This document shows positions 4,841-33,558 of a stretch of 36,409 nucleotides of DNA, one piece after another. The notes under the pieces are model-generated. The model did no database searches. It was not told where the DNA came from and saw only the letters and a list, made by a program, of their open reading frames with translations. Source of the DNA: Desulfobacterales bacterium (GTDB lineage Bacteria; Desulfobacterota; Desulfobacteria; Desulfobacterales; JAOZSB01); contig JAOZSB010000007.1 in the NCBI GenBank assembly GCA_029939895.1, positions 1-36,409 on the forward strand. Reading direction: 5' to 3'. Positions within the stretch are counted from its first letter, which is position 1, and each line of letters begins with the position of its first letter. The position numbers and the translations under genes are program-made.

Positions 4841-4917
4841 TTGCTTTTTCCGTTTTTTTTTACTTCAAGTTAATATTATTGTATTACTGCACATACCTTA
4901 AAAACTTTTTCCATCAC

Positions 4918-5220: not shown

Positions 5221-5223
5221 AAT

Positions 5224-5733
5224 TTATTTCCCTATCTCCAACGCTTTAATTATCATTGCCTTTGCATTTCCAATTGCAGCAGCACTGGCATCATATGCCC
5301 GCCTTGCCACAACCATGTCCGCCATCTCTGCCAGAATATCGACATTAGGCATTGCCACATATCCCGTAACCGGGTCGGCATCGGGGTGGCTTGGATTATA
5401 AATTAACGCAAAGTCCTCCTGGGATTTAACAATCTTTGTAACTTCCACACCAGCAGCATCAAGCTCAGGAAGAGGATCCTCGCAGGTATGGCAGGAGGCC
5501 TGGTCATATTCAGACTCACACTTCACACTGCCGCCACACATCTTGCTGCCGAGAACATCACCAAATCTTTTAACCGGCGCAGCCTCAAAAACCACCATCT
5601 TGCGCCTGTATGGCCCACCCTCTTCTGTCCTGGTGGTCTGCGCATTGGCAAGGTTGTCGGCTATTACGTTCAGCTTGAGCCGGTGTGCTGAAAGACCCGT
5701 GCTGCTAACTCTTATTGAATGAAGCAGATCCAT
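5224..5733 (-). CDS. flgC: Flagellar proximal rod protein FlgC, with Cys-containing insert
   Basis: FlgC is a rod subunit exported by the flagellar type III system. The N-terminal rod motif (SSTGLSAHRLKLNVIADNLAN, about 11-30) and the C-terminal motif (ARRAYDASAAAIGNAKAM, about 143-160) are both clear. At 169 residues it is longer than the usual 130-150. The extra length falls near residues 58-92 and contains four cysteines (66, 72, 81, 84) arranged C-x5-C-x8-C-x2-C, in a family that is normally nearly Cys-free. The insert reads in frame without disruption. The start codon shares one base with the flgB stop (TAATG). The possible role of the insert is discussed in the findings. Confidence 0.95.
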   Translation of the reverse strand: MDLLHSIRVSSTGLSAHRLKLNVIADNLANAQTTRTEEGGPYRRKMVVFEAAPVKRFGDVLGSKMCGGSVKCESEYDQASCHTCEDPLPELDAAGVEVTKIVKSQEDFALIYNPSHPDADPVTGYVAMPNVDILAEMADMVVARRAYDASAAAIGNAKAMIIKALEIGK

Positions 5734-6161
5734 TATCTTCCTCCTCCTTCAACTATTGAATGTTTTAGTACGGATATTTTTCTAAGGAGCATTTCAATGC
5801 TCGTTTTATATTTGATGTTATTTTCAGCGAGGTTTGTCATTTCTGTGTCGATATTGACATGGCCCACATCATAGCCAAAATCATTTGGCTCAATACCGTC
5901 GGGGTTGAGGCTGAAGGGGCAGAACTCATCCTTTACTGTGTACTGGTAATGTTTATCATCGGTATGGGCCATGGGCCTTTTTTCGACTGTCTTTCTATTG
6001 AGTTCATTTACAAGGGTCTTGTGAAAATCTATATCCCTTGGCTTGTACCCGACAGTGTCGACGTTGGCGATGTTTGAAGAAATCAGCTCATGCTTCCTGG
6101 CACTGATGTCCATGGACTTGCTGAGCATTGTGTAGGTATCATCGAAAAGTTTGACTGACAT
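5733..6161 (-). CDS. flgB: Flagellar proximal rod protein FlgB
   Basis: FlgB is the first rod subunit and binds FliE. The 142-residue protein has the rod signature SSNIANVDTVGYKPRDIDF (about 28-46) and a helical C-terminus (TNLAENNIKYKTSIEMLLRKI). The middle segment contains one Cys. The ATG at 6161 is preceded by AAAAGGGG with 6-base spacing. It is the first gene after the internal sigma-54 promoter (6221-6235) and heads the flgBC-fliEFGH set, translationally coupled to flgC. Confidence 0.96.
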   Translation of the reverse strand: MSVKLFDDTYTMLSKSMDISARKHELISSNIANVDTVGYKPRDIDFHKTLVNELNRKTVEKRPMAHTDDKHYQYTVKDEFCPFSLNPDGIEPNDFGYDVGHVNIDTEMTNLAENNIKYKTSIEMLLRKISVLKHSIVEGGGR

Positions 6162-6219
6162 AATAAACCCCTTTTGAATCTAAATAAACATGGAACTAAA
6201 AGTATTCAAAAGTGTTTAT

Positions 6220-6235
6220 TGCAAATGCCGTGCCT
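6220..6235 (-). promoter_or_regulatory. Sigma-54 promoter ahead of flgB
   Basis: The minus strand reads AGGCAC-GGCAT-TTGCA (6235-6220). It has the invariant GG (-24, 6234-6233) and GC (-12, 6222-6221) with exact 10-base separation, against the consensus TGGCAC-N5-TTGCA. It begins right after the stop codon of the flrC-like gene and would start RNA near 6209, giving a leader of about 48 bases before flgB. It probably responds to the FlrC-like activator encoded just upstream. Confidence 0.75.
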
Positions 6236-6238
6236 AAG

Positions 6239-7672
6239 TTATGCTTTTTCCACTTGTTCGTTGTATTCGTTGAGTTTGTTCCGAAGGGTGCGGACGCTGA
6301 TTCCGAGGATGGTTGCTGCATGGGTGCGGTTCCCCTTGGTGTGGTCAAGGGCTTGAAATATAACCTTTTTCTCTACTTCCTTAAGGGGTTCTATGGGTAG
6401 CTCAGAGGCTGGCTGCACCTCTGGAGAAACAAAGGAATCCGGCTCAAATAAAGATTCTTCCAGATAAAGATCCCCTGCATCTATTTTTTCGCCATCACAC
6501 AGCAGTACTGCCCGTTCTATGAGATTTTCAAGCTCCCGCACGTTCCCGCCGAAGGGAAGAGACAAAAGCTTGTCCATTGCCCTGGTCGTCACAGATTTGA
6601 CACTCCTTCCGTCAAGTCTGTTGTACTTTTCTACAAAGTGCTTTACCAGAACCTTAATATCTCCTGCCCTCTCACGCAGGGGCGGAATGCTCAGGGGGAT
6701 GACATTCAGCCTGTAAAACAAATCCTCCCGAAATTCACCCTTTTTAATGGTTTCCTTCACGTCCCGGTTGGTGGTGGCTATGATCCTGACATCTACTCTT
6801 ATGGGAGAAGCACCGCCTACACGGTCAACCTCCCGTTCCTGGATCACCCGCAGCAGCTTGGCCTGCAAGTGATACTGCATCTCGGTAATCTCATCAAGGA
6901 GGATGGTTCCCCGGTCTGCCAGTTCAAATTTACCTGATTTTTTTGTTATCGCTCCGGTAAAAGCACCCTTTTCATGACCAAAAAGTTCGCTCTCCAGAAG
7001 GGTCTCCGGTAAGGCTCCGCAGTTCACAGCCACAAAGGGCCCATTTCGACGACCGCTGTTTTCATGGATAAAACGGGCGAAAAGCTCCTTGCCTGTCCCG
7101 CTCTCGCCACGGATTAAAACCGATGCACGGCTGTCAGCAACCTGCTTGACCTTATCCAGAAGATTTAACATCCTCGTATCGCCAGTAACTATCTGCTTAT
7201 CCGCGCCGCCCTGCTCCTTGCTGTCTGATCTTCTTTCCGATCCCCTGACTGTTCTTTTGTCCGGCCCGCCTGAACTGGTTACTGCATGTGCATCATTGCT
7301 CTGGCTTGTCGATGCAAAGGCATAGTTGACAAGACTTTTTAAATGCGCTCCGTCAATGGGCTTGATAATAAAATCAAAGGCACCGTTCTTCATGGCGATA
7401 ACTGCATTTTCAATGGAGGTTTCCGAAGATATGAAAATTATCCTGGTGTCGGCATTGTCTTCAAGGACGCTTTCGAGCATAGATATCCCATCAACTCCTG
7501 GAAGCCCATAGCTTGATATCAAGAGTCCGTATTTTCCGGTCTTTGCTTTTTTAACAGCGTCCACCCCGTCAAGGGCAGTGTCTACCTTAAAACCCCATCC
7601 CTCTAAAGCATCCGCAAGAGCGAAACGCTCTTTGGGGTTCTCTTCCGCAAGGAGGATATTCTCATTTTTCAT
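6239..7672 (-). CDS. FlrC/FleR-like sigma-54 activator with degenerate receiver
   Basis: This is an NtrC-family enhancer-binding protein, probably the second-tier activator of rod/basal-body genes (FlrC/FleR type). Residues 1-120 are receiver-like, but the acidic pair is E10-E11 and the phosphorylation Asp is replaced by Ser54 (context LISSYGLPG); Lys104 is kept. The AAA+ domain (about 160-395) is intact: Walker A GESGTGKE (189-196), the sigma-54-contacting GAFTGA loop (236-241), Walker B ending D260-E261, and R-finger-type segments. The C-terminal Fis-type helix-turn-helix lies near 445-470 (GNRTHAATILGISVRTLRNKL). The linker at 121-160 is polar and charged. The ATG overlaps the TPR gene stop by 4 bases (ATGA). 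The degenerate receiver argues against classical phosphorylation control. Confidence 0.88.
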   Translation of the reverse strand: MKNENILLAEENPKERFALADALEGWGFKVDTALDGVDAVKKAKTGKYGLLISSYGLPGVDGISMLESVLEDNADTRIIFISSETSIENAVIAMKNGAFDFIIKPIDGAHLKSLVNYAFASTSQSNDAHAVTSSGGPDKRTVRGSERRSDSKEQGGADKQIVTGDTRMLNLLDKVKQVADSRASVLIRGESGTGKELFARFIHENSGRRNGPFVAVNCGALPETLLESELFGHEKGAFTGAITKKSGKFELADRGTILLDEITEMQYHLQAKLLRVIQEREVDRVGGASPIRVDVRIIATTNRDVKETIKKGEFREDLFYRLNVIPLSIPPLRERAGDIKVLVKHFVEKYNRLDGRSVKSVTTRAMDKLLSLPFGGNVRELENLIERAVLLCDGEKIDAGDLYLEESLFEPDSFVSPEVQPASELPIEPLKEVEKKVIFQALDHTKGNRTHAATILGISVRTLRNKLNEYNEQVEKA

Positions 7673-10212
7673 GATTGCCTGAGCTTTGCCTCTAACTCAA
7701 TGCCGCGAACTTTTTCTTCCGCAAGCTTTTTCCAGAAAGGATCATCCGAGTCAATAATCTTTTTGTACACCCGGAGGGCCATATCCATTTTATTACCTTT
7801 CTGGTAAGATTCGCCTAAACTGAAGCGTACGTCAACAGGATTTACATCATTACTTGCAATTTCTAATGCACTTGAGAATGCTTCGGCTGCTTTTATGTAG
7901 GAATTCAACTGTATATAGGTACCGCCAAGTTCCCGATAAGCTAAATAAATATCTTCATTATATCGGGTTTTGTCCAAATTTACAATTTCAAGGTGCTTTA
8001 TCAAGCTTTCTGCCACCATAGAGTACTCTTTCCGACCCTTATATGCTTTGGACATGCTCAAATATATTTCTGCCCGTGAATTATTTTTTTTCGTCCGCTT
8101 TAAAGCTGATTCAAAATCCTTGTTGGCCCTCTTGTATTGCTTGGCTGCCAAATAAATTATACCCCTGCTGAAATATGCTTCACTGGCTTTACTTTTATTC
8201 CGGTTCTTTCTCAGATAGGCGGTCAGGTGTTTTTCTGCCAGCTCATTTTTACCGGCTTTCTGTGAAGCAAGCCCAAGGTAGTATGTCAGCTCGGCTGGTT
8301 TGTCTCTCCTGCCGTACAAAAGGTCGGTTCGGGCCAGAAGTTCCGATGCCTTGTCGTAAAGATGCCCGTGGAGAAAAGCTTTGCTGACTGTAAAAAAGAT
8401 TGCCGGGTCCTTGAATTCTTCAAAAATTTCCTTTTCCCGTTCATAGCGTGTCATTATCCGGGTGTATTCTTTTTTCTTGAGGTATAATTCATACAACGCC
8501 CGGTATGCACTCTGCTTGATAACTGCTGCTTCATTTGCCAGGGCCTTTGGAAATCTTATTTTGAACTCTGCAATGGTGGCTATGCTTTTTTCATGCTGGG
8601 TTATCTTGTTTTGCAGGTCTGCAAGCTTGAGCATGGCAAACTTCGCCATTGTATGATCGCCATAATCGCTTATGACCATATCAAAAAGATCGTTCTTTTG
8701 CTTCATTTCGCTCTTGCCCTTTAATGCGGCAAGGCGCATGGTACTGATTACAAAGCCATCTGTGCTTGGATATTTTCCAGTGACAAGATAATACATCATG
8801 GCAGCTTTTTCACTATTATCCTGATCCTTGTAGGTGTCTGCAATTCTGGTCAATATCAAGTCACCATTGGTTTTTTCAGGAAAAAAGTTGTAGGACTTGA
8901 TAAGAGCCTTTCTGGCATCGGTATACTCCTCCTGCTGGTAGTGGCTGTTGCCGATGAATTCGAGAATATCCTGATGCTCAAACACTGCATGGGGATTTAA
9001 ACGGACAACCTCGGAGAAAAACCTTTGTGACTCATCCCAGTTCTTGGCAGCGTAAGCTGTTTTGCCCAGGTCTATCCGTGCATCCATTGCATATGCAGTC
9101 TTTGGACGCACCTTGATGACCTCCAGGAAACTGGCCCTTGCCTTATCAAGTTTATTCTTATTTTTGTACACCCGGCCAAGATCAAGAAGAAGCTCTGGCT
9201 TGCCGGAATAATTCTTATGATTCTGTAATATAAGGTCAGTATAAGCAATTGCACCGCCAGTACTGCCCATATCAGCATAAATTTTTGCGATTGCTGCAAG
9301 GCCGTAAGCCCGCAAAGGCGACTTTAGATCATTGATTAACGCATCGTTAAAAAGCTCTGTCAGGGTTACATGCTTTGTTTTGTCTATCTTAAAATATGTC
9401 TGGAATTCACAGAATGCCTTTAAATATAAAGCAGAGTCCCTGCATTCCATATCAGGGTTCGATTCAAGATCGCTGCTCAGGATATAGGCAGCATCCTGCC
9501 ACATCTCTTTTTCGCAATAAGAAAGTGCCGACTCAATAGTATTTGAATCCTTGGCGCACTGCATCCCTGCCACCGCACCAAGAAGATCATCAAGACCACC
9601 GTCCAGCTCCAGTTCGACGGGCTTGGCACCCTTTACGCTTTTGTACCTGATGGATTCTGCGTTGCCTTTTCGTGCAGTTTTAGTAAATCTGCTGCTTTTT
9701 ATATCCCCTGGTGCGATGTCGGTTTTCTTTGCCATACTTCGGGGACCGATACCTGGTTTACCAGAGGCACCTTTTTTAGTCAGATATTTCATGCTTTTCT
9801 TACTTTTTTTAGCATAAACCACCGCTGGTTGCAGCACTATCTCCAGAGTGTTCCTTGCTGACATCCACTGGGTTCTTACATTCTTTACATCCATTGTCGT
9901 TGTCACATAAATAATGATCGTGCCGTCTGGTCTCATTTTCGCGCTTATCTTTCTTATCAGGGGCGCGCCTGAGCCTATCTTCCTGATTCTTGAAGGAAGC
10001 GTAATGTCCCTGAAGGCTATCATTATTTCACGTTTTCCGGTCTGGTGTATTCTATAGGGTGGTTTTCCGTTCAGGGTAAAGCTGAGTCCATAAGGCCCAT
10101 TAAAAAGTCGTATCGATTCGAGCTGTACAGCAGCCTGTGCCGCAGACACGAAAAGCCCCCCAGAGAGAAGCATTAGAACCGATATGAAGATGACTTTACT
10201 TTTTTTAAACAT
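7669..10212 (-). CDS. Exported TPR protein with AMIN-like N-terminal domain
   Basis: The 847-residue protein starts with a signal peptide (about 1-27, cut near AQAA|VQ). An AMIN-like beta domain follows (about 29-135; such domains bind cell-wall or envelope structures), then a basic linker (about 135-190) and a long series of tetratricopeptide-like helical repeats (about 215-840). It should sit in the periplasm or on the envelope as a scaffold. It is the first gene after the sigma-54 promoter at 10365-10379 and overlaps the flrC-like gene by 4 bases. In gammaproteobacterial flagellar clusters the sensor kinase FlrB/FleS takes this place. No kinase motif is present here. A role in flagellar assembly, motor anchoring or checkpoint signalling is inference from context. 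Confidence 0.85.
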   Translation of the reverse strand: MFKKSKVIFISVLMLLSGGLFVSAAQAAVQLESIRLFNGPYGLSFTLNGKPPYRIHQTGKREIMIAFRDITLPSRIRKIGSGAPLIRKISAKMRPDGTIIIYVTTTMDVKNVRTQWMSARNTLEIVLQPAVVYAKKSKKSMKYLTKKGASGKPGIGPRSMAKKTDIAPGDIKSSRFTKTARKGNAESIRYKSVKGAKPVELELDGGLDDLLGAVAGMQCAKDSNTIESALSYCEKEMWQDAAYILSSDLESNPDMECRDSALYLKAFCEFQTYFKIDKTKHVTLTELFNDALINDLKSPLRAYGLAAIAKIYADMGSTGGAIAYTDLILQNHKNYSGKPELLLDLGRVYKNKNKLDKARASFLEVIKVRPKTAYAMDARIDLGKTAYAAKNWDESQRFFSEVVRLNPHAVFEHQDILEFIGNSHYQQEEYTDARKALIKSYNFFPEKTNGDLILTRIADTYKDQDNSEKAAMMYYLVTGKYPSTDGFVISTMRLAALKGKSEMKQKNDLFDMVISDYGDHTMAKFAMLKLADLQNKITQHEKSIATIAEFKIRFPKALANEAAVIKQSAYRALYELYLKKKEYTRIMTRYEREKEIFEEFKDPAIFFTVSKAFLHGHLYDKASELLARTDLLYGRRDKPAELTYYLGLASQKAGKNELAEKHLTAYLRKNRNKSKASEAYFSRGIIYLAAKQYKRANKDFESALKRTKKNNSRAEIYLSMSKAYKGRKEYSMVAESLIKHLEIVNLDKTRYNEDIYLAYRELGGTYIQLNSYIKAAEAFSSALEIASNDVNPVDVRFSLGESYQKGNKMDMALRVYKKIIDSDDPFWKKLAEEKVRGIELEAKLRQS

Positions 10213-10364
10213 AATAGCCTGTTTGCATTAACTTTGTATGAAAGAAACCTTAAACATTTACAACTCTTTCAATTTTGTTGTGGGCAAAAAATAAACACAT
10301 AAATAGTCTGCCCGTGTCAGTTGATGTTCAAAAAATCAATAATAAATATCTCAACTTCATTAAA

Positions 10365-10379
10365 GCAATCGCTGTGCCA
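10365..10379 (-). promoter_or_regulatory. Sigma-54 promoter of the TPR-flrC-flg/fli operon
   Basis: The minus strand reads TGGCAC-AGCGA-TTGC (10379-10365), a near-perfect -24/-12 element with GG at 10378-10377 and GC at 10366-10365. RNA would start near 10353, leaving a leader of about 140 bases before the TPR gene ATG at 10212. It should need a sigma-54 activator, most simply the FlrA/FleQ homologue encoded just upstream. Confidence 0.85.
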
Positions 10380-10488
10380 AAGTTGGCTCTCCCTATAATA
10401 ATTCACAGAATCAAACGTAAACTCTCAAGGAAAAACTTCACTTCAATACCCCATTTATAAAGACTCTATCGAAAAATAAAATAACCCC

Positions 10489-10509
10489 GGCCCTGTATTT
10501 GCAGTGGCC
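10489..10509 (-). terminator. Candidate terminator upstream of the sigma-54 promoter
   Basis: GGCC-CTG (10489-10495) pairs with CAG-T-GGCC (10502-10509) with one bulged base and a 6-base loop. The minus-strand RNA then continues through a GGGG run into a U-rich stretch (complement of about 10471-10484). It would end leftward transcripts from the cheX-cheY-flrA operon. It is far (about 450 bases) from the flrA stop, so another site may come first. Confidence 0.45.
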
Positions 10510-10567
10510 TTGCTAAAGAATATATTCTCAGCATATATATAATCGGCTCCAACAGCTTAAAAATAAA

Positions 10568-10586
10568 GGTTTTTAATCACAAAACC
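10568..10586. terminator. Weak bidirectional terminator-like hairpin
   Basis: GGTTTT (10568-10573) and AAAACC (10581-10586) form a 6-bp stem with a 7-base loop. T-rich tracts follow on both strands (plus: 10588-10602; minus: complement of 10561-10567 and beyond). The stem is weak. Confidence 0.3.
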
Positions 10587-10965
10587 GCTTTTTAGTTTTT
10601 TTTAAACTGCCAACAGGCACACATCCAGCTCTTGAATCACAAACATTTTTGCCTGCAAAGGGCCGAAAAATAAAGGCTCACATAAAAATTGGGGCTGCAT
10701 GTAAAAACAGGCCGGCACTTAAAATAATAACTTATCTTTTTTTTAAAGAAGGTCTCAAAAACAATAAAAAAAAACATGCTGTCATAACCAGTATTATAAC
10801 AAATCCTTTTCTTTTATTCAACTTCGCCCAGGATCCACCCATTCAAATATGCGTGCAAATTCCCAGTGTTCCAGGATTTGCATCCATACATACAAAACAG
10901 TTTTTAATATTTATTGATGAAAATTATGATAGTATGATTATGACGGTGTTGTCAAGATTTTGACC

Positions 10966-12414
10966 TTAATGCTGAGGATTGGGCCCGGGGTCTTCTTCGT
11001 CCAGCTTCATTTTTTTGATCTTTTCAACCAGGGTGGTTCTCTTGATTTTCAAAAGCTCCGCTGCCTTGGCCTTAACCCAGTCGGTTTTGTTCAGGGCCTG
11101 GAGGATGAGTTCTTTCTGATACTGTTCCACGGATGTATTAAAATCTATGCCGTCCTCTAATGAAAAAGGTGCCATTATGCCTGGGGTACTTTCCTTTCCC
11201 TTTATTTTGTCAGGGAGATCATCATATTCAATTACTTCCTCATCAACAAGCACGGACAAACGCTCCATGAGGTTTTCCAACTCCCTGATGTTGCCATTCC
11301 AGTCGTAGGTAAGCAGAGTTTTTTCTGCTTCAACGGAAAAACTTTTTTTAGGCTCCATAGTCCGCTCGCTGAAACGGGTGAGGAAGTGGTCAATTAAAAG
11401 CGGGATGTCCAGAAATCTGTCCCTGAGCGGGGGTACATGAACAGGAATCACGTTCAGGCGGTAATATAGGTCTTCTCTAAATTCGTTTTTATCAATTGAT
11501 TTGGGAAGATCTTTATTTGTTGCAGCCAGGATTCTTATGTCCACTGTAATGGTTTTCGCACTTCCGACACGCTCGAAGGTTCTTTCCTGAAGCACCCTCA
11601 ACAGCTTTACCTGCAAGCTCGGACTCATGTCGCCGATTTCATCGAGGAACATTGTCCCGCCTTCAGCCAGTTCAAAACGGCCAACCCTGGTTTTATGCGC
11701 TCCGGTAAAGGCTCCCTTTTCATGGCCAAAAAGCTCGCTTTCCAGAAGTTCGCCAGGAATTGCACCGCAGTTTATTATAACCAGCGGAAAATTCGCCCTG
11801 CTGCTGTTATTGTGTACGGCCCTTGCGACAAGCTCCTTACCAGTACCACTTTCCCCGGTTATAAGAACTGTGCTGTCGGTTGCTGAAACTTTTTTTATGG
11901 TTTTGAAAATCTTCTGCATCTGGGGACTGTTACCGACAAGACCGCTAAACCCGTTTACAGCCTTATCTGCCGATTCAGTTTTAGTTGAATTACTGCCCTG
12001 CTGGACTGCGCCCTGATCATTATCATCTGCTTCAAGGCTTTCAACACCTTCCTGGGAAGTGTTGCCTGCCTTTTTTATGGCACCTGAAATATCTTTTTTT
12101 TCAACAGGAAGATTTAGGTAGTCAAAGGCTCCGCGTTTGACTGCTTCCACGGATTCATGGATGGTTGCATTTTTTGCTAAGATTATACATTTTATTTGTG
12201 TGAGGTTGTCTACTATATGGTCAAAAGTCTCCTGATCGTCATTACTTTGAGTTTCTTTTTCTAAAAAAACAAGCCCATATTCTCCGGAATCGAGCTTATC
12301 TCTGGCATCCTGGGAATTCTCAGACAGCTCAATCATGAAACCATCCATGCTTTTAAGGATAGCCTTTGCTTCACTGTCTTCTACTATGGCAAGGATTTTC
12401 AAGGCACCTGCCAT
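10966..12414 (-). CDS. FlrA/FleQ-like sigma-54 master flagellar activator
   Basis: This enhancer-binding protein (482 residues) most resembles FleQ/FlrA. The AAA+ domain (about 155-395) has Walker A GESGTGKE (187-194), GAFTGA (234-239), and an LQERTFERVG segment as in FleQ. The C-terminal Fis-type helix-turn-helix includes the FleQ-like KRTTLVEKIKK motif. The receiver domain (1-115) is degenerate: Glu52 at the phospho-Asp position, no MPxxDG loop, and Leu102 where the conserved Lys should be. The FleQ c-di-GMP motif LFRS appears here as GFSG (155-158), so that contact Arg is missing. I chose the ATG at 12414, which shares one base with the cheY stop (TGATG), over an adjoining TTG at 12417. 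It lies in a cheX-cheY-flrA operon. Confidence 0.88.
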   Translation of the reverse strand: MAGALKILAIVEDSEAKAILKSMDGFMIELSENSQDARDKLDSGEYGLVFLEKETQSNDDQETFDHIVDNLTQIKCIILAKNATIHESVEAVKRGAFDYLNLPVEKKDISGAIKKAGNTSQEGVESLEADDNDQGAVQQGSNSTKTESADKAVNGFSGLVGNSPQMQKIFKTIKKVSATDSTVLITGESGTGKELVARAVHNNSSRANFPLVIINCGAIPGELLESELFGHEKGAFTGAHKTRVGRFELAEGGTMFLDEIGDMSPSLQVKLLRVLQERTFERVGSAKTITVDIRILAATNKDLPKSIDKNEFREDLYYRLNVIPVHVPPLRDRFLDIPLLIDHFLTRFSERTMEPKKSFSVEAEKTLLTYDWNGNIRELENLMERLSVLVDEEVIEYDDLPDKIKGKESTPGIMAPFSLEDGIDFNTSVEQYQKELILQALNKTDWVKAKAAELLKIKRTTLVEKIKKMKLDEEDPGPNPQH

Positions 12415-12788
12415 CAACCAAACACCCTCTTAAGCTTATCGCCAATCACTTCTGCGGTGAAGGGCTTTACTACATAGTTGGATACCCCTGCCTGAACTGC
12501 TTCAATAACATTTTGCTTCTGAGCCTCGGCAGTAACCATTAAAAAAGGAATGTTTTTGAGGTCATCATCGGCTTTCATCGTCTTCAACAGCTCAATCCCC
12601 GTCATCTTCGGCATGTTCCAATCACATATGATCATGTCGAATTTGGACGACTTCAGCTGCTCAAGGGCAGTACTCCCATCGTCAGCCTCGGATATGTTCG
12701 TAAATCCAAGCTGCTTGAGAATGTTTTTCATAATCCTGCGCATGGTTGCAAAATCGTCCACAACTAAGATTCTCATGGACATGTCCAT
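12414..12788 (-). CDS. cheY: Chemotaxis response regulator CheY
   Basis: This is a single-domain receiver of 124 residues that should bind the flagellar switch when phosphorylated. All key residues are present: acidic pair D11-D12, phospho-Asp D56 (IICDWNMPKMTG), T86 and K108 (VVKPF). The ATG at 12788 is preceded by AGGAGG with 6-base spacing. A small hairpin (AACCC/GGGTT, 12803-12819) spans the cheX stop just upstream of this ribosome site and could influence coupling. It overlaps flrA by one base and follows cheX by 30 bases. No CheA, CheW or receptor is encoded in the window, so it depends on kinases elsewhere. Confidence 0.93.
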   Translation of the reverse strand: MDMSMRILVVDDFATMRRIMKNILKQLGFTNISEADDGSTALEQLKSSKFDMIICDWNMPKMTGIELLKTMKADDDLKNIPFLMVTAEAQKQNVIEAVQAGVSNYVVKPFTAEVIGDKLKRVFG

Positions 12789-12818
12789 ATAGTCCCTCCT
12801 TTAACCCCGATCTTGGGT

Positions 12819-13280
12819 TTATCTGTCAAAGCACACCTCAATGGTGAAATTTCCAGCTTCCGTACCAAATGGAATTGCTACTTTTGGGCCATTTGTTATA
12901 TGTATTATGCTGTGATCTTTTCCCATAACTACCGATGGAATCGCTCCTTCAAATACTTTTCCGACTTCTGCCAATTCTTTTCTTGCCTGCCCGGAAATCA
13001 TATTTGTCAGTTCACCAACAGCATCTGCTATTTCATTGTTGAGTTCGGTCATTTCCTCACCAAACATATTTGAAACAATTTTTAAAATACTCAGCTCTTC
13101 AAAAGTTACTGCTATGGTCCCGTTTGCATCCCCTGTTATACCTATAATGCCAGTCACATCACCCCTGGCAGCATTGTCTTTTTTTAAAAACGGCTTACCA
13201 GGTTTTGAATCTATAAAAGCCATAGTACTTAATACATTTTTAGTGGCCACAATAAAAGGATTAATAATTAATGCGTCCAT
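12819..13280 (-). CDS. cheX: CheX-type CheY-phosphate phosphatase
   Basis: CheX dephosphorylates CheY-P and ends the chemotactic signal. The 153-residue protein fits the CheX/CheC/FliY fold. The catalytic ExxN motif is E90-L-T-N93, within the helix DAVGELTNMISGQARKEL. The preceding GxxGITGDANG segment and the C-terminal beta strand (ending NFTIEVCFDR) match the family. The ATG at 13280 has AGGAGA upstream at about 6-8 bases. It is followed by cheY, which supports the phosphatase-substrate assignment. It is the first gene of the cheX-cheY-flrA operon; I see no clear promoter in the 127 bases upstream. Confidence 0.88.
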   Translation of the reverse strand: MDALIINPFIVATKNVLSTMAFIDSKPGKPFLKKDNAARGDVTGIIGITGDANGTIAVTFEELSILKIVSNMFGEEMTELNNEIADAVGELTNMISGQARKELAEVGKVFEGAIPSVVMGKDHSIIHITNGPKVAIPFGTEAGNFTIEVCFDR

Positions 13281-13352
13281 TGAAAATTCTCCTAAAGGCG
13301 TTTGACTGCCTTATATTTCAACAATTGCTAAAACATCACAACTGTTTACTCT

Positions 13353-13383
13353 AAGATGTTATCGACCATAATCGTCACATCTT
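13353..13383. other. Hairpin between pilZ gene and cheX
   Basis: AAGATGT (13353-13359) pairs with ACATCTT (13377-13383), with a short inner CGA/TCG pairing in the loop. The T-tract lies on the plus-strand side (13384-13393), where no gene needs it; the minus-strand side has none. It may be a weak 3'-end structure for the PilZ message. Confidence 0.25.
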
Positions 13384-13407
13384 TATTTTTTTTGTACTTA
13401 TTTAGCT

Positions 13408-13899
13408 CTAATCCTTCAAATTTCTTATGGCTTTCCTCTGTTCCGCAAAAGAATATTTGATCAATTTCTCCTGATCAGCATCCATTATATCTAAAAAATT
13501 CATGGCAACGCAGAACTCATCCTCTGCATTTCCAGGCTCCGCCCTAACAACAACAGCCTTTGTTTCCAGGACACCAGAGGGCAGTTCCGGGGAGGTGATC
13601 GACAGGACAAACTCATCGCCTGCCTCAACTTTTCCCCTGACATGCAGCTTGACACCGCCACCGCTCAAATTTATGGCATCAAGAATTTCAACCTTGTTTT
13701 CTTTGTTCCCTGGCTCTAAAATTTCAAGAATTTTGTCGAGCTTCTCTTCTATTCTGACAAGATGCGACGCTACAACATCTTCATCATCAAGTCCGCCATG
13801 CATAGAACCGTGCGAGTCTGCGAGTCGCTTTAAGCGCAACGTCGCAGCAATTCTGCTTCTAACGAACTCTCTTTTCTCATTACTGTTCGATTCCGGCAT
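13408..13899 (-). CDS. PilZ-domain c-di-GMP-binding protein
   Basis: The 163-residue protein carries both c-di-GMP contact motifs of PilZ domains: RxxxR (R10-E-F-V-R14) and [D/N]xSxxG (N77-L-S79-G-G-G82). Between them is an unusually long stretch (about 25-65) with a predicted helix rich in Leu, Ile, Glu and Lys, possibly a dimerising coiled coil. No membrane segment is seen. It is encoded between an HD-GYP regulator and the cheX-cheY-flrA operon, which suggests it links c-di-GMP to motility in the manner of YcgR-type proteins; that role is inference. The ATG at 13899 has only a weak ribosome site, so the start is less sure. Confidence 0.85.
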   Translation of the reverse strand: MPESNSNEKREFVRSRIAATLRLKRLADSHGSMHGGLDDEDVVASHLVRIEEKLDKILEILEPGNKENKVEILDAINLSGGGVKLHVRGKVEAGDEFVLSITSPELPSGVLETKAVVVRAEPGNAEDEFCVAMNFLDIMDADQEKLIKYSFAEQRKAIRNLKD

Positions 13900-22814: not shown

Positions 22815-23271
22815 TATTGTCTGTGAATTCAAGCATTGATTTTCCAGACCAAATATCACCACCACCATGTAAAAGCCACCCAGAGAAATCAGCAATAATG
22901 ATTCACACACTACAATTGTATACCTGCTTCTTTTACTGCTTTTTCCCCCGAAACAACCTCACTAAAGCAGGTATTCCTTTAATACACCCCCTGTTTATTT
23001 GCACATCCAGGCTGCTGATTTTGTCCATATTGCACTTGAATTATTAAATATTTTTTGGTAGCTTAATTTATGCTATATGATTTAGACTGATTTTGTATCT
23101 AAAATATGGTGAACAATAAAAAGATTTTCCATGAGTATATTGACCATTATAAAAAGCATTCGCCGCTAAAGCATACGGTTTTACTATAGATTCCATTATT
23201 GCTTTTTAAATAAACGGCGGTTTTTGCAGCAGAAACCACTGAGATTAAGTTTTGTGAAGGACTTTTACGTT
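22815..23271. other. Gene-free interval between solute-binding protein and kinase
   Basis: About 457 bases, AT-rich towards the right, without a credible gene on either strand. A CGCCG/CGGCG pair (about 23161 and 23215) brackets a long loop before a T-run, but it is weak. No clear -35/-10 pair stands out. The length leaves room for a promoter or a 5' leader for the kinase. Confidence 0.5.
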
Positions 23272-25338
23272 ATGGCTGAAAAACCAACCCGCGAGGATCT
23301 GCTAAAGCGCATTGCCGAGCTTGAGCAGGCTGATTTTGAACGCAGTCAGACTAAGAATGCACTCAAAAAACAGGAGGCCCAGCTTGCTGAATCCCAGTCT
23401 GTTGCCAAAATAGGAAGCTGGAACCTGGATCTTGTTTCCCAGAAACTTGAGTGGTCCAGCGAGACATACAAGCGGTTTGATAAGACAGAAGACAAGTTTA
23501 CACCAAGCTTTGATGAATTTGCCCGGCTGGTACACGTGGATGATTTTGAGGAAATGCAGACTGCATTTTATAATGCCCTTGAAAATGATGCTTATCCATA
23601 CCATGTTGAAATAAGAATAATCAACGACTCCGGGCGCGAATGGGTGATGGAGGCATTTGGCAAAACCGTCCGTGATGATCAGGGCAATGCTGTCAGGATT
23701 TATGGTACTGCCCAGGATGTCACACAACGCAGGTATGCCGAGGATGAACTGAAAACTGCTCATGCTGAGCTGGAAATACGTATTGCACAACGTACAGACG
23801 AGCTTTCCAGGACAAATCAGGCATTGCGGGATGAGATACTTGAACGGCAGCAGACAGAAGAGGCGCTGAGTGAAAGCGAAGAAAAATACCGCTCAATCAT
23901 GGAGGCAATGACCGACCCCGCATATATCTGTTCAAGCAATTACCGTGTATCATATGTAAACCCTGCCATGATACAGAGAGCAGGACGGGATGCAACTGGC
24001 GAAGTATGTCACATGATGATGCATAACTCCGATCAAAAATGCTCCTGGTGCATACACGACAAGGTGATGCAGGGCGAAAGCAACACCTATGAGATTCTCA
24101 GCCCCATGGATAAGCGTTGCTATCACATTATTAATTCCCCGATTTTTCATGCAGACGGTTCTGTTTCAAAGCTGTCAATTTTGCATGATATTACAGAGCT
24201 GAAACAAATCGAAGAAAAACTTCGCCAGGCCCAGAAGATGGAAGCCCTGGGAACCCTCGCTGGCGGCATAGCCCACCAGTTCAACAACTTGCTGTACATC
24301 ATATCCGGGAACATAGAATTATTAATTGAAGGTGCAGCTCCTGAGAATGAAACAGTATTGCAGGCAGTCCTGAAATCAACCCGGAAGGGATCTGATTTAG
24401 TAAAGCGAATTCTTGCTTTCAGCCGTAAATTTGAAGGCAATATGAAAACCACCCGCTTAAATGATGAAATAAGGGGAACCGTCAGAACTATCAACGAGTT
24501 GTTCCCGAAAAAGATAGACAGACAATTTGACCTTGCAAAGGATTTATATACCGTAAAAACAGACAAAGATCAGATAAAGCAGGTTTTGACTGATTTGTGC
24601 CTGAACGCAAGGGACGCAATGCCCAATGGCGGCAACCTGACAATCAAGACAGAAAACAGCTTCATAGATGAGACGTTTACTGCCAAGCATCCAAAAATGG
24701 AAAAAGGCAAATGCATTATTATATCAGTCTCTGATACAGGCGTTGGAATGAACCCGGAAACCAGTGAACGCATTTTTGAACCGTTTTTTACTGCAAAAGA
24801 TTTTGGCGCAGGAACCGGGCTTGGACTATCTGTGATTTATGGAATTATAATCGGGCACGAGGGAGTCATTACCTGCGACAGTAAACCTGGCAGGGGCACA
24901 ACATTTCACATTTACCTGCCTGCCTTTGAAGACAAACACAATAAACCCGAAAGCCAGGCAGGGGAGGCCCAGGAACAAAAAACCATCATGATTGTTGATG
25001 ATGAAAAGCAGATAATAGAAATCACCTCCCAGATGGTTAAACGGCTGAAGCATAAAACCATTTCTGCGGACTCTGGTGAATCAGCCCTGGAAATTTATAA
25101 AACCCAAAAAGCAGAAATTGATTTAATACTCCTTGATCTGCATATGCCTGGAATGGGCGGAGAAAAATGCCTTGAGGAACTTATAGCATTTGACAGGGAT
25201 GTAAAGGTTGTAATAGCCTCTGGATATTCAGACGAGGACTCTATCAAAAAAACTTTGCAGGCAGGAGCAAAGGACTATATAGTTAAACCATACTCCATGA
25301 AAGATATTTCAAACACAATCATCAAAAATCTGGAATAA
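23272..25338 (+). CDS. Soluble hybrid histidine kinase PAS-PAS-HisKA-HATPase-REC
   Basis: The protein (688 residues from the ATG at 23272) has no signal peptide or membrane helix and should be cytosolic. In order it has an N-terminal coiled coil (1-45), a PAS domain with PAC motif (about 45-155), a coiled coil, and a second PAS (about 205-310) bearing Cys246, Cys257 and Cys260 (the last two as CSWC). HisKA follows with His335 (GGIAHQFNNLL), then HATPase (N box LNARDAMPNGG, G1 DTGVGM, G2 GTGLGLS) and a receiver (about 571-688) with phospho-Asp near 622. I prefer the ATG with AAGGA (23257-23261) over the upstream TTG at 23224. The core is paralogous to the kinase at 31246-33558. The Cys-bearing PAS could sense redox or bind a metal; this is inference. 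Confidence 0.88.
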   Translation: MAEKPTREDLLKRIAELEQADFERSQTKNALKKQEAQLAESQSVAKIGSWNLDLVSQKLEWSSETYKRFDKTEDKFTPSFDEFARLVHVDDFEEMQTAFYNALENDAYPYHVEIRIINDSGREWVMEAFGKTVRDDQGNAVRIYGTAQDVTQRRYAEDELKTAHAELEIRIAQRTDELSRTNQALRDEILERQQTEEALSESEEKYRSIMEAMTDPAYICSSNYRVSYVNPAMIQRAGRDATGEVCHMMMHNSDQKCSWCIHDKVMQGESNTYEILSPMDKRCYHIINSPIFHADGSVSKLSILHDITELKQIEEKLRQAQKMEALGTLAGGIAHQFNNLLYIISGNIELLIEGAAPENETVLQAVLKSTRKGSDLVKRILAFSRKFEGNMKTTRLNDEIRGTVRTINELFPKKIDRQFDLAKDLYTVKTDKDQIKQVLTDLCLNARDAMPNGGNLTIKTENSFIDETFTAKHPKMEKGKCIIISVSDTGVGMNPETSERIFEPFFTAKDFGAGTGLGLSVIYGIIIGHEGVITCDSKPGRGTTFHIYLPAFEDKHNKPESQAGEAQEQKTIMIVDDEKQIIEITSQMVKRLKHKTISADSGESALEIYKTQKAEIDLILLDLHMPGMGGEKCLEELIAFDRDVKVVIASGYSDEDSIKKTLQAGAKDYIVKPYSMKDISNTIIKNLE

Positions 25339-28799: not shown

Positions 28800-29426
28800 A
28801 TGGATTCAGAAAAACAAATCAGTGACTATACTCCAAAGCCACGTGTGCTTGGTATCTGCGGCAGCCCCAGAAAAAACGGTAACTCAGACATTCTTTTGGA
28901 TCATGTTCTAAAAGGCACAATGGAACATGGAATTGCAACGGACAAGGTTGCATTGCGTAACTTGCAGTTTAAGGGATGCATAGGGTGCGAGTGCTGCAGA
29001 AAGGATAAAATCTGCACGGGATTGCCCGATGATATGTCTGAAGTTTATCCAAAAATTATTGAGTCCCAGGGGCTGGTACTTGTCTCCCCAACCCACAACT
29101 ATAATATTACCTCATGGATGAAAGCTTTTATTGACCGCCTCTATTGCTTTTATAACTTTGAGGATAATCGACCCAGGGGCTGGTCAAGTCAAATAGAAAA
29201 CCAGGGACGCAAAGCCGTTCTGGTGGCAGTGTGCGAGCAGGTAGACAGGCATGACATGGGATTCACCCTTGAAGCCATGCGCCTCCCAATCGAAGCACTT
29301 GGATATGAAGTAATCGAAGAACTGCCTGTATTCGGCATCTTTGATAAAGCTAAAGTTAAGGAACAAAACGATGTATTAGCCTCAGCAATAAGCCATGGTG
29401 TAAAACTGGCCAAATCTTTTCTTTGA
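28800..29426 (+). CDS. Iron-sulfur flavoprotein, NADPH-dependent FMN reductase family
   Basis: The 208-residue protein has a flavodoxin-like fold. The N-terminal GICGSPRKNGNSD phosphate loop (about 18-30) binds FMN, and SPTHNYNITSWMKAFIDR is the second flavin-contact region. A compact cysteine motif C60-x2-C63-x2-C66-x5-C72 (plus C65) matches the [4Fe-4S] site of archaeal and anaerobe iron-sulfur flavoproteins. It is cytosolic. The electron partners and substrate are unknown; oxygen or peroxide protection has been suggested for the family. It lies between the dCache kinase (78-base gap) and the diguanylate cyclase (39-base gap). AGGGGA is 13 bases before the ATG, a rather long spacing. Confidence 0.87.
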   Translation: MDSEKQISDYTPKPRVLGICGSPRKNGNSDILLDHVLKGTMEHGIATDKVALRNLQFKGCIGCECCRKDKICTGLPDDMSEVYPKIIESQGLVLVSPTHNYNITSWMKAFIDRLYCFYNFEDNRPRGWSSQIENQGRKAVLVAVCEQVDRHDMGFTLEAMRLPIEALGYEVIEELPVFGIFDKAKVKEQNDVLASAISHGVKLAKSFL

Positions 29427-29465: not shown

Positions 29466-31052
29466 ATGCAAGCCAATAAAACCAATAAGACCCAAAAGCA
29501 AATGCTGGCCCGTTTTCTCGGTGCCACCCTGCTGCCCATCCTCCTTCTGGGCATAACCATATCATACGGCATATTAAGCCTGAACGAGCAGCATTCCTTC
29601 GCCCAAAAAGAGGTCAAGGGAACCTTTGGTGTTCACCTTTTATTTAAAACAATGTCAGATATTCAGGAGCTTAGAGGGATCTCCCAGATTTTGTTATGGG
29701 ACAATAATTCAAAGATGGCCTCCCATGCAGCAGCTATAAAAAAACGGCTGGAAATCCGCCTGACTTCCCCAAAATGGAAAAACCTGTGTAAAGAATTTGG
29801 CATTTTCCAGGATGTTTCAAAAAATTATTCTGAGTTGCAAAATCTCTATAATTCAAAAGAAATTAAAAGTTCTGCTGACATTACTTACACAAAATTTGAT
29901 AGATACACAAAACTCATTGAAGAGCTGCGCCGCACCATTCACCTTGTTTCAGACCGTTCAAACCTCATACTTGACCCGGAACTTGATACTTACTATTTGA
30001 TGGAAATTGCAGTAAAACAGATCCCGGACATAAGCGAAGCATTTGCCATAATTCGTGGTATTGGAAGCGGGATGATAGCCCATGACAGCCCTGGAAATAA
30101 AGACAGGGCATTGTGTTTTGAAAAACTGCTCCTTATAAAAGCACAGCTAAAAGAATTTAATCACGTTGTTGCAACCATAAGCAATGAGGCCCCGGAATTA
30201 CAGGCAGAGATTAAAGCCACCCGTGCAAAATACAGCCCGCCATTAGAGTCCTTTATTGCAACCTGCGACTCCCTTGGTAAAGGGAAAGAAATCAACATGT
30301 CGGCTGAGCTTTTTTTTCAGCTCGGATCACAATCCGTGGGTATTTGGTGCAAAATCCACGAGACCACTATTTTAGAATTACGTCAGCGTCTGGAAACCCG
30401 CCTCACCAGCCTGAGACAAAAAATGATCATAACAATCCTGTTTGCAGTTATTACTATCGGGTTTGTCTTTTATTTTTCATTATCATACTTTTTAAAACTC
30501 CAGCAATCCTTCTGCGACCTTGAAAAAACTTCAATTACCGATCCCCTTACCGGATTAAATAATCGTCGATACCTTGATTTTATTTTTGAAAATGAAATCA
30601 TGCGATCCCAGAGGGATAGCAAAGGCGTTGCCTTTGGACTCATGGACATTGATTTTTTTAAGCCATACAATGACACCTATGGTCACCAGATGGGCGACAT
30701 TGCTTTGCAGAAAGTTGCCCATGCATTCAGGATGTCCCTGCCCAGAGCTGGAGATTTTATCTTTAGATACGGAGGGGAAGAATTTTGTTTTCTAATAAAC
30801 TCTACTTCAAAAGAAGATGTAATCAGGATTGGAGAACGTATCAGGGCGGACATAGAGGCGCTTGGCATTGAGCATCGTAATAGTAAAGTAAAGCCTGTTA
30901 TTACAATTTCCATTGGCATTATTTTTGTTGAAAAAGTCTCTGGTGAAACTCTTGACACCATGATAAAACAGGCAGATGACTTACTGTACCTGGCCAAGGA
31001 GCAGGGACGTAATCGCTGCATTGTGTCAACAATACCACCCAAAACCACATAA
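29466..31052 (+). CDS. Membrane-bound diguanylate cyclase (GGEEF)
   Basis: The 528-residue protein has a membrane helix (about 16-38) and a long helical periplasmic domain (about 40-318), of the four-helix type seen in some chemoreceptors and containing a SNLILDPELDTYYLM signature. A second helix (about 320-343) is followed by a GGDEF domain (about 355-525). The active site is GGEEF (436-440), and the metal-binding Asp lies in MDIDFFK (D394). The product-inhibition I-site RxxD (R427-A-G-D430) sits five residues before GGEEF. It should make c-di-GMP and be feedback-inhibited. It is the only evident cyclase in the window, opposite the HD-GYP enzyme. The ATG at 29466 lacks a good ribosome site; coupling to the flavoprotein gene is possible. 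Confidence 0.92.
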   Translation: MQANKTNKTQKQMLARFLGATLLPILLLGITISYGILSLNEQHSFAQKEVKGTFGVHLLFKTMSDIQELRGISQILLWDNNSKMASHAAAIKKRLEIRLTSPKWKNLCKEFGIFQDVSKNYSELQNLYNSKEIKSSADITYTKFDRYTKLIEELRRTIHLVSDRSNLILDPELDTYYLMEIAVKQIPDISEAFAIIRGIGSGMIAHDSPGNKDRALCFEKLLLIKAQLKEFNHVVATISNEAPELQAEIKATRAKYSPPLESFIATCDSLGKGKEINMSAELFFQLGSQSVGIWCKIHETTILELRQRLETRLTSLRQKMIITILFAVITIGFVFYFSLSYFLKLQQSFCDLEKTSITDPLTGLNNRRYLDFIFENEIMRSQRDSKGVAFGLMDIDFFKPYNDTYGHQMGDIALQKVAHAFRMSLPRAGDFIFRYGGEEFCFLINSTSKEDVIRIGERIRADIEALGIEHRNSKVKPVITISIGIIFVEKVSGETLDTMIKQADDLLYLAKEQGRNRCIVSTIPPKTT

Positions 31053-31122: not shown

Positions 31123-31152
31123 TTGACAATCCCACATGAAAACTGGTATTGT
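31123..31152 (+). promoter_or_regulatory. Sigma-70-like promoter of the heme-sensor kinase gene
   Basis: TTGACA (31123-31128) and TATTGT (31147-31152) are separated by 18 bases. RNA would start near 31159, giving a leader of about 87 bases before the ATG at 31246. The -35 is perfect. Confidence 0.45.
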
Positions 31153-31245: not shown

Positions 31246-33558
31246 ATGATACAAAAACCGATTACCATTCGCACCCATTCGATTGCTGCTGTTGTGTGGT
31301 TTTTATTTTTGAGCTTGTCTTTATTTTTAAACATACAAAACGAGAAATCCGATGCAGCAGAGTCTGCCCGCATCATGGCGCATACTGCATTTGAAAAAGA
31401 TGTGCTGTACAGGCGCTGGAATGCCAAACATGGCGGTGTTTATGCCAGGGTTACTGAGCTGACCCAGCCCAACCCCTACCTTAATACGCTTGAGCGAGAA
31501 ATAATAACACCTTCAAACAAAACCCTGACCAAGATCAACCCGGCATTTATGACCCGACAGGTTCATGAATTAGGAAAAGACACCCTGGGGGTTGTGGGAC
31601 ACATTACCAGCCTTAATCCAATCCGCCCTGAAAATGCACCGGTTCCCTGGGAGGCCGAAGCACTCAAGCTCCTGGAAACCGGAATACCTGAATTTACTTC
31701 CATTGAAAACGTGCAGGGTGAAAAATATTTTCGATTCCTTCGCCCCCTGCTTACAGAACAAGGATGCCTCTCGTGCCATGCTGTCCAGGGATACAAGGTC
31801 GGGGACATACGAGGCGGCATCAGCATTTCCGTGCCAATGAAACCCTTTAACGATATGGCCAAAAAACATATTACTTTGCTTTCTGTCATCCATGGTATTC
31901 TTTTTTTCCTGGGACTTGCAGCTCTACGGTTTGCTGCTTTTCATATACGCATGCAAATCGAAGTACGAGAAAAAACAGAAACCCAATTGCAAACCAGCGA
32001 GGAAAGGCATCGCCTGTTTTTTGAAAACACTCCCATTGGAATGGTGCATTACAACAGCGATGGAATAATCACAGAAGTCAATGAAGCCATACTCAAAACA
32101 TTTGGCTCATCCCGTGAAAAGGTTCTGGGATTTGATATCAGGGATGTTCCCAGTGGTGATTTTGCAGAAACAATTTTAAAATCATTAAAGGGCCAGTTTG
32201 CACATTTTGAAGGTGAATACACCTCTGTTACAGGCAAAAAAACCTCCTACATTAAAGCAAGCATTATTCCAATTTTAAAAAATGGGAAAATGATATTAGG
32301 CGTTGGGCTTGTTGAGGACATCACTGAACACAGGCTGGCCCAGGAAGAATTAAGACTAAAGGAGTACCAGCTCCAGAGATCCCAGAAAATGGAAACCGTT
32401 GGAATTCTTGCTGGTGGTGTGGCGCATGAATTTAATAATCTTTTATATATTATTTCCGGCAACACCCAGCTCCTGCTTGACGATGCAACCCCTGGATCAA
32501 AAGAAATGCTCCAGGCAATTTTTCAGTCAACACAAAGGGGTGCAGACCTGGTTAAACAGCTCATGGCATTCAGCCGCAAAACAGAAATCCTCCTGAATAC
32601 TACTTTCCTCAATGATGAAATACAAAAAATCATGCGGATGCTTGACCGTGTTTTACCCCGCATGATTGACACAAAACTTGATCTTGATGAAAATTTATTT
32701 TCCATAAAGGCAGATGGCGGGCAAATTGAACAGGTTGTAATGAATGTGTGCATAAATGCAAGGGATGCAATGCCCGACGGTGGAACCCTTACCATAAAAA
32801 CCGAAAATGGTTTCTTTGATGAAGCACTTTACAACAGCCCCTCCAGCCATTCGCCAGATTTCAAGATAGGGCTGGATTCAGCCATGTCAACCGGCTTAAA
32901 AACAGGCCGTTGCGTTATTCTTACTATTTCAGACACAGGCACTGGAATGGACAGTAAAACCCAGGAACATATTTTTGATCCATTTTTTACTACAAAAGAA
33001 ATTGGCAAGGGAACAGGGTTGGGCCTTTCTGTTATCTATGGCATCATACAGAGTCATGGCGGGTATATTGCCTGTGAAAGCCAGCCTGACGAAGGAACAA
33101 CATTCAAAATTTATTTCCCCTTTGTCGCTGAGGAGCAGCTTGTGCCAACCCTGGACAGTGATGCGGCAAACCGTGCATCAAAGGGAACAGAAACAATATT
33201 GCTTGTTGATGATGAAAAAGATGTAATCAATATAACAAGGGCGATGCTGTCGAAGCTTGGCTACGATGTTATTACTGCGGACAGCGGAGAATCTGCTTTT
33301 GGAATTTACCTTGAAAAATATTTGCAGATTGACCTTGTCGTGATTGATCTGGGCATGCCGGGGATGGGTGGAAGAAAATGCATTGAAAAACTGTTGTACT
33401 TTAACTCAAAAGCAAAAATTCTTGTTGCCACTGGATACTTGGAAGAAAGCCTTATTAAAGACATTAAAAACCTTGGTGCAAAGGGATATGTTGCCAAGCC
33501 CTTTACAGCAGCCAACGCTTCACGGGCTATTCGAGAAATTTTAGACAAGGATGAATAG
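31246..33558 (+). CDS. Hybrid histidine kinase with heme-binding Tll0287-like sensor
   Basis: The 770-residue protein has a membrane helix (about 12-30), a periplasmic DUF3365/Tll0287-like domain (about 40-205), a second helix (about 210-232), a PAS domain (about 250-365), HisKA with His394 (GGVAHEFNNLL), HATPase (NARDAMPDGG, DTGTGM, GTGLGLS) and a receiver (about 650-770, phospho-Asp near 701). The sensor carries a c-type heme motif C174-L-S-C177-H178 within EQGCLSCHAVQGYKVGDIRGG, typical of heme-bearing members. Covalent periplasmic heme suggests redox or gas (NO, CO, O2) sensing. The core is paralogous to the soluble kinase at 23272-25338. No DNA-binding response regulator adjoins it, so output passes through the attached receiver or elsewhere. 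Confidence 0.9.
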   Translation: MIQKPITIRTHSIAAVVWFLFLSLSLFLNIQNEKSDAAESARIMAHTAFEKDVLYRRWNAKHGGVYARVTELTQPNPYLNTLEREIITPSNKTLTKINPAFMTRQVHELGKDTLGVVGHITSLNPIRPENAPVPWEAEALKLLETGIPEFTSIENVQGEKYFRFLRPLLTEQGCLSCHAVQGYKVGDIRGGISISVPMKPFNDMAKKHITLLSVIHGILFFLGLAALRFAAFHIRMQIEVREKTETQLQTSEERHRLFFENTPIGMVHYNSDGIITEVNEAILKTFGSSREKVLGFDIRDVPSGDFAETILKSLKGQFAHFEGEYTSVTGKKTSYIKASIIPILKNGKMILGVGLVEDITEHRLAQEELRLKEYQLQRSQKMETVGILAGGVAHEFNNLLYIISGNTQLLLDDATPGSKEMLQAIFQSTQRGADLVKQLMAFSRKTEILLNTTFLNDEIQKIMRMLDRVLPRMIDTKLDLDENLFSIKADGGQIEQVVMNVCINARDAMPDGGTLTIKTENGFFDEALYNSPSSHSPDFKIGLDSAMSTGLKTGRCVILTISDTGTGMDSKTQEHIFDPFFTTKEIGKGTGLGLSVIYGIIQSHGGYIACESQPDEGTTFKIYFPFVAEEQLVPTLDSDAANRASKGTETILLVDDEKDVINITRAMLSKLGYDVITADSGESAFGIYLEKYLQIDLVVIDLGMPGMGGRKCIEKLLYFNSKAKILVATGYLEESLIKDIKNLGAKGYVAKPFTAANASRAIREILDKDE

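Follow-up and report, generated by a model that had tools for sequence, protein, structure and literature searches.

A predicted extracytoplasmic c-type heme sensor in a hybrid histidine kinase of a Desulfobacterales bacterium and the signals it may perceive

The hybrid histidine kinase gene at 31246-33558 (+ strand, 770 aa) of the window, by which the whole analysed stretch of 36,409 nucleotides is meant (contig JAOZSB010000007.1 of assembly GCA_029939895.1, Desulfobacterales bacterium), raises the question of which signal is perceived by the outward-facing part of its product. To our knowledge, only few heme sensors are situated outside the cytoplasm. Very probably, the outward-facing part of this kinase carries a covalent heme which senses NO or the redox state. 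We slightly favour, with little better than even confidence, an NO-responsive periplasmic heme hybrid kinase with an open or weakly ligated distal side; a redox switch is the main rival of this reading and a CO sensor a lesser one.

The family, its heme and its role as a sensor have already been described. DUF3365/Tll0287 was renamed sCache_heme in a preprint from February 2026 (PMC12889525), where CxxCH was found in 99% and 99.4% of two sCache_heme data sets. A role as NO sensor was assigned to the family only in this preprint. The window kinase is an ordinary, well-supported sCache_heme member. Among the papers listed for DUF3365, Tll0287 and sCache with heme, titles and abstracts revealed no other study of kinases of its clade.

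Kinase anatomy and heme site

The domain order according to Pfam is sCache_heme (Tll0287-like/DUF3365)-PAS-HisKA-HATPase-REC, with all features on the + strand. The match to the Tll0287-like family PF11845 (71.3 bits, cut-off 24.1) covers residues 83-197 (31492..31836) and is followed by a cytoplasmic PAS domain (residues 253-361; 32002..32328), a HisKA domain (388-446; 32407..32583) with the H-box HEFNN and His394, a HATPase domain (491-626; 32716..33123) with the motifs NARDAMP (504), DTGTGM (563) and GKGTGLGL (587), and a Response_reg receiver (REC, 651-759; 33196..33522) with VDDE from residue 654, D701 at the phosphoacceptor position, T729 and K751. As H394, the three ATP boxes, D701, K751 and all other kinase and receiver motifs are intact, the protein is a hybrid histidine kinase, and the fusion to PAS-HisKA-HATPase-REC which the sequence-only reading had described was recovered in full. 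Two predicted membrane helices, one at residues ~12-30 (31279..31335; hydropathy peak 2.19, within model helix 5-61) and one at ~209-227 (31870..31926; peak 2.33), flank the sensor domain, which is therefore predicted to be extracytoplasmic. A third, weaker hydropathy peak (1.40) at residues 338-356 lies inside the PAS domain.

The heme c attachment motif with its proximal His, C174-L-S-C177-H178, is located at 31765..31779. By composition alone, 0.001 CxxCH motifs would be expected in the 770-aa kinase; the one found starts at residue 174. C174, C177 and H178 are invariant in all 79 readable relatives (from the best 80 of at least 589), and CxxCH also occurs in all 108 distant family members, which were themselves selected for CxxCH during extraction. 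In an AlphaFold2 model built from the window sensor and the 79 relatives (pLDDT 95.6, pTM 0.88), CxxCH lies in a helix (172-181) which is inserted between strands 159-169 and 188-197 of a Cache fold.

The best VIA structure match of this model was Tll0287 of Thermosynechococcus (5B82; Z 16.1, 133 residues, rmsd 2.7, 20% identity), which was also the first Foldseek match (E 2.2e-05). The next VIA rows (Z 11.6 and 9.5) were integrative models, followed by Cache sensors at about 9. Tll0287 shares with the window sensor the fold and the position of CxxCH; it differs in that it stands alone and has its heme ligated by His and Cys (cited in PMC12889525), whereas the window sensor has no third Cys. 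The Geobacter sensors GSU0935 (3b42, prob 0.99) and GSU0582 (3b47, prob 0.93) were listed by Foldseek with poor superposition and were absent from the 50 VIA rows. A poor superposition of this kind would be explained by helix-swapped dimers, which are the crystal forms described for both proteins (PMC3460858). As predicted for the window sensor, their c-heme domain is periplasmic and flanked by two membrane helices; they differ from it in their chemoreceptor output and in a distal ligand that is Met60 or water (PMC8396549); the sequence similarity to 3b47 is weak (E 0.73). In DcrA of Desulfovibrio vulgaris, by its description, a c-heme sensor in the periplasm is likewise combined with a PAS domain in the cytoplasm; DcrA differs in being a chemoreceptor (PMC8396549). 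A phmmer search of the sensor against PDB sequences yielded no match at E 10, so that a profile search was needed.

Two Cytochrom_C_asm proteins (C94 and C289) are encoded in the genome, both being of the CcsB/CcsA type according to NCBIfam TIGR03144. The C94 copy scores above the cut-off, and the C289 copy, a partial query, reaches 186.5 bits against a cut-off of 187.6. A ResB gene adjoins the C94 CcsB copy, and together we take these genes to represent the System II pathway of cytochrome c maturation. Profile, 5B82 fold, conservation, topology and System II genes thus speak, at the level of sequence and model, for a sensor domain outside the cytoplasm with a site for covalent c-type heme. 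The earlier description of a DUF3365/Tll0287-like domain with this motif is thereby confirmed and its reading as a putative heme-bearing periplasmic sensor supported, and the structure prediction suggested as a check agreed with it.

The clade and the distal side of its heme

A scan of genome contigs gave at least 592 pattern matches, of which at least 589 were confirmed as relatives. The best 80 were kept, and one of them (L097, an unreadable frame of 35 codons) was dropped, which leaves 79. By their titles, these best 80 of at least 589 stem from Desulfobacteraceae, other deltaproteobacteria, Phycisphaerae, Nitrospirae, Bacteroidales, Calditrichaeota, Verrucomicrobia and others, so that the clade is widespread in deltaproteobacteria and many other groups. 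PF11845 was matched by all 80 members of the structure alignment (window included) and by 206 of 395 genomes of the phylum, 201 of them above the cut-off; the genome of the window itself holds five PF11845 places. The sensor was matched in 15 of 40 genomes, which are this genome, counted among the 15, and 39 others of the same order. A 28-residue fragment of GSU0582 had no match in a set of 6 genomes and matched 7 in a set of 395; no genome among these was identified as G. sulfurreducens.

Judged by eye, eleven short sensor relatives (L008, partial, as well as L034, L035, L043, L060, L064, L068, L074, L081, L090 and L098) have a Cys-rich end of the form ICxxCKKIRDDxGxW...CPxC and no kinase. 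Seven others (L032, L039, L047, L056, L057, L077 and L086), also inspected by eye, are short and stop behind a HisKA-like pair of helices (CHELNQP), leaving no space for an ATPase domain, which looks like a heme sensor on a phosphoacceptor-only half kinase.

The distal side was analysed in an alignment of 202 rows, comprising the window, its 79 relatives, 108 other family members, 10 further loci and 4 stand-alone proteins or fragments. The 108 other members are loci from genomes of the phylum, namely the 30 best hits and 80 picked among the matches listed, minus two loci without a CxxCH frame (L222, fetched without its upstream flank, and L225, at a contig end). This survey of 110 loci is non-random and favours profile-like members, and its frame lengths were taken on clipped loci. 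Within these bounds, a Cys at the start of alpha2 was found in 14 of the 108 other members, 13 of which are closed frames of less than 275 codons, and a Met at the column of I97 in 56, of which 55 are in longer frames. Expressed by frame class, Cys is present in 13 of 19 short (stand-alone) members, a strong yet incomplete link, and Met in 55 of 89 longer ones; 38 of the 108 (5 short, 33 long) have neither. By its position alone, the Cys would correspond to the axial Cys of the preprint (PMC12889525), and we infer that the Met of the other column is a ligand, too. Met60 of GSU0935 may be another Met near the end of alpha1 and not the residue of this column; one locus (L120) has a Met 84 residues before the heme His, which is the same spacing as from Met60 to His144.

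In the window sensor, C174 and C177 are the only Cys residues and alpha2 starts with I97-N98-P99-A100. The stretch N98-P-A-F-M102 (31537..31551) lies in or next to the one which holds Cys in most short and Met in many long relatives. A distal Cys is thus excluded by sequence, and, with the axial Cys absent and the PAS-HisKA-HATPase-REC output fused, the window kinase stands outside the Cys/His stand-alone subgroup, to which Tll0287 and a P. putida protein belong. Since the window sensor lacks the Cys seen in stand-alone members and has Ile in the Met column, its distal side is, judging from the alignment, probably open or weakly ligated. Lacking both ligands is not peculiar to the window clade, as 38 of the 108 other members do so as well.

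With the sCache_heme family as described (PMC12889525), the clade shares the profile, the Cache fold, the insertion of CxxCH between strands, the predicted extracytoplasmic place and the fusion to a histidine kinase. It differs from the family in a longer alpha1-alpha2 linker with extra strands and in the motif RxWxxxHGG, and from the stand-alone members in having N-P-A about where their axial Cys sits. In the window, the motif R56-x-W58-x3-H62-G-G (31411..31437) at the end of alpha1 is followed by the linker (residues 65-97; 31438..31536), for which the model gives short strands at 65-68, 85-87 and 93-97. The spacing from R56 to N98 is 42 residues in the window, 42-44 in the 79 relatives (best 80 of at least 589) and 26 in the median of the 108 others (17-46), which makes the linker of the clade about 16 residues longer than this median. 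The motif is kept in the same 79 relatives (best 80 of at least 589) with R in 78, W in 79, H in 65, G63 in 77 and G64 in 78, and N-P-A with N in 79, P in 79 and A in 77. Invariant in all 79 (best 80 of at least 589) are, besides the heme motif, W58, N98, P99, R104, H119, W135, E136 and G190.

A tree was calculated from residues 103-197 only, omitting the ligand stretch and the linker. In this tree, 79 of 80 HGG/NPA rows fall into one split of 84 (support 0.91), a grouping which partly follows from the sampling, since the window query had retrieved most of the relatives; the five extra rows are relatives of the window and the one row outside is L024. The Met rows, 57 in total, share one split of 63 (support 0.83); the Cys rows, 17 in total, share one of 26 (support 0.90). 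At the start of alpha2, the clade is unlike both the Cys type and the Met type, and the missing Cys and Met are a point worth testing. It is conceivable, as a tentative proposal to which we give somewhat less than an even chance, that the RxWxxxHGG/NPA clade forms a distal-ligand class of its own beside the Cys and Met classes and among the wider set with neither, in which the lengthened linker would close the pocket, the distal ligand would be another one or absent and a signal would be read that the tested members do not read. This view is weakened by the 38 other members which also lack both residues.

Nitric oxide, redox state and other candidate signals

For the favoured reading, the periplasmic single-Cache domain would hold one covalent c-type heme, bound by thioethers to C174 and C177 with H178 as the proximal ligand and loaded by the System II maturation proteins of the genome. 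A diatomic ligand, most likely NO, would alter the heme pocket, and this change would travel along alpha1 and the helix that follows the last strand to the two membrane helices and on to the cytoplasmic PAS domain. There it would set the autophosphorylation of H394 and the subsequent transfer to D701 in the receiver of the kinase itself; a separate phosphotransfer protein and a response regulator would then carry the signal onward. Among the window ORFs scanned, no phosphotransfer domain was found, and proteins with a receiver and without a kinase lie at least 15 kb upstream on the other strand, by the flagellar genes.

NO as the most likely ligand is suggested by analogy to characterized relatives, among them the tested NO sensor, which is from Pseudomonas and may stand outside the window clade. 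The tested proteins include WP_033902098 of P. azotoformans. A tested stand-alone protein with an axial Cys releases NO fast, whereas a tested membrane-bound HAMP protein without it holds NO (koff 6.25e-4 per s), and neither is reported to form a stable O2 complex (PMC12889525). It is this slow release of NO by a signalling-associated member without an axial Cys, together with the missing O2 complex, which favours NO for the window kinase.

The hybrid cluster protein family is linked to NO handling, and the genome has one hybrid cluster protein/hydroxylamine reductase gene, which speaks mildly for NO and has no tie to the window kinase. A second such gene had to be discarded as support, since one of the two Prismane matches is an anaerobic CO dehydrogenase; this lowers the probability of the NO reading and raises that of a CO or O2 sensor. 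NrfA had no match in the genome (assembly 94.5% complete), which counts against NO, and no match was found there for the MauG/CCP family either.

According to the main rival, which we consider rather unlikely, the domain senses the redox potential: an internal distal ligand (M102, H62 or H119) would make the heme six-coordinate when reduced and be lost or swapped on oxidation, and this switch would drive the kinase, as proposed for GSU0582 and GSU0935. In these Geobacter sensors, the oxidised form is high-spin and the reduced form low-spin, a change ascribed to Met60, with potentials of -156 and -251 mV (PMC8396549). H62, M102 and H119 could each be a distal ligand and are highly conserved or invariant, so that redox switching would gain if one of them took this place. 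H119 is His in all 79 relatives (best 80 of at least 589) and is replaced by Arg or Lys in 102 of the 108 other members. M102 is Met in 77 of the 79 (best 80 of at least 589), a conservation which is partly an artefact as one of the two search patterns demanded this Met, and 78 of the 108 others have Val, Ala or Ile at its position. H62 was rejected as a strict axial ligand, since 14 of the 79 relatives (best 80 of at least 589) replace the His (by Gln in 6, Leu in 2 and six other residues in one each). Against such a switch also speaks that the column with Met in 56 of the 108 others is Ile in the window, with M102 close by.

A CO or O2 sensor appears improbable. The reduced Geobacter relatives bind CO, and they bind NO in both forms; DcrA senses redox potential and oxygen (PMC8396549). 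Moreover, the genome encodes the anaerobic CO dehydrogenase mentioned above (TIGR01702, 555.8 bits, cut-off 478). This enzyme is, however, encoded on another contig and has no tie to the window kinase. O2 is the least likely ligand, given that neither of the two sCache_heme proteins tested formed a stable O2 complex (PMC12889525) and that the Geobacter relatives are described as binding CO and NO (PMC8396549). From the list of redox state, NO, CO and O2 offered by the sequence-only reading, the first three can therefore be kept on account of the relatives, and O2 falls back. That the fold is kept and senses without heme, with CxxCH being structural or metal-holding, fits the general view once held that Cache domains bind ligands without a cofactor (PMC12889525), but is very improbable in view of the Cys and His residues kept in all 79 readable relatives (best 80 of at least 589), the motif in all 108 distant members (selected for CxxCH) and the cytochrome c maturation genes.

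The surrounding locus

Upstream of the kinase gene lie genes for a GGDEF protein (29466-31052, + strand; Pfam), a flavoprotein of the FMN reductase family (28800-29426, + strand; Pfam), another histidine kinase and a solute-binding protein, and downstream lies RsmE. The long N-terminal region of the GGDEF protein had no Pfam match at E 0.01. Both the cyclase and the flavoprotein thus exist as proposed earlier; the redox-linked signalling locus that had been suggested on their account did not survive the comparison with related loci. None of 80 such loci (best 80 of at least 589), searched by tblastn with flanks that reach at most 6 kb and are often truncated at contig ends, held a relative of the flavoprotein, the solute-binding protein, the N-terminal region of the GGDEF protein, RsmE or DUF6178, and the case for a redox locus from synteny was dropped. 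With the whole GGDEF protein as query, 8 of the 80 (best 80 of at least 589) were matched through its catalytic domain, in L083 within the sensor protein. Two other kinases of the window matched 59 and 50 of the 80 (best 80 of at least 589), which is put down to shared catalytic domains.

The flavoprotein bears a C-x2-C-x2-C-x5-C motif (CIGCECCRKDKIC), which in our view is similar to the compact cluster motif that iron-sulfur flavoproteins have.

A gap of 193 bp separates the kinase gene from its upstream neighbour. It holds a promoter-like TTGACA-N18-TATTGT with a TG before the second hexamer (31123..31152, + strand), a consensus match only, which is weak as the scanned region has 9 such sites compared with 5.7 +/- 2.7 in shuffles. 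The site gives a weak hint that the kinase gene may be expressed separately.

The kinase at 23224-25338 (+ strand) is 40% identical to the window kinase over its residues 234-762 (E 4e-132), so that one signalling half is joined to different inputs in this locus. The two hybrid kinases, about 6 kb apart, have like PAS-HisKA-HATPase-REC halves and different inputs. Between 16719 and 28721, family-3 solute-binding proteins (16719, 22035 and 25582) stand beside histidine kinases (17530, 23224 and 26466), as if paired. Further upstream, on the - strand (1295-13899), the window encodes flagellar fliH, fliG, fliF, fliE and rod proteins together with two sigma-54 activators, a single receiver, CheX and a PilZ protein.
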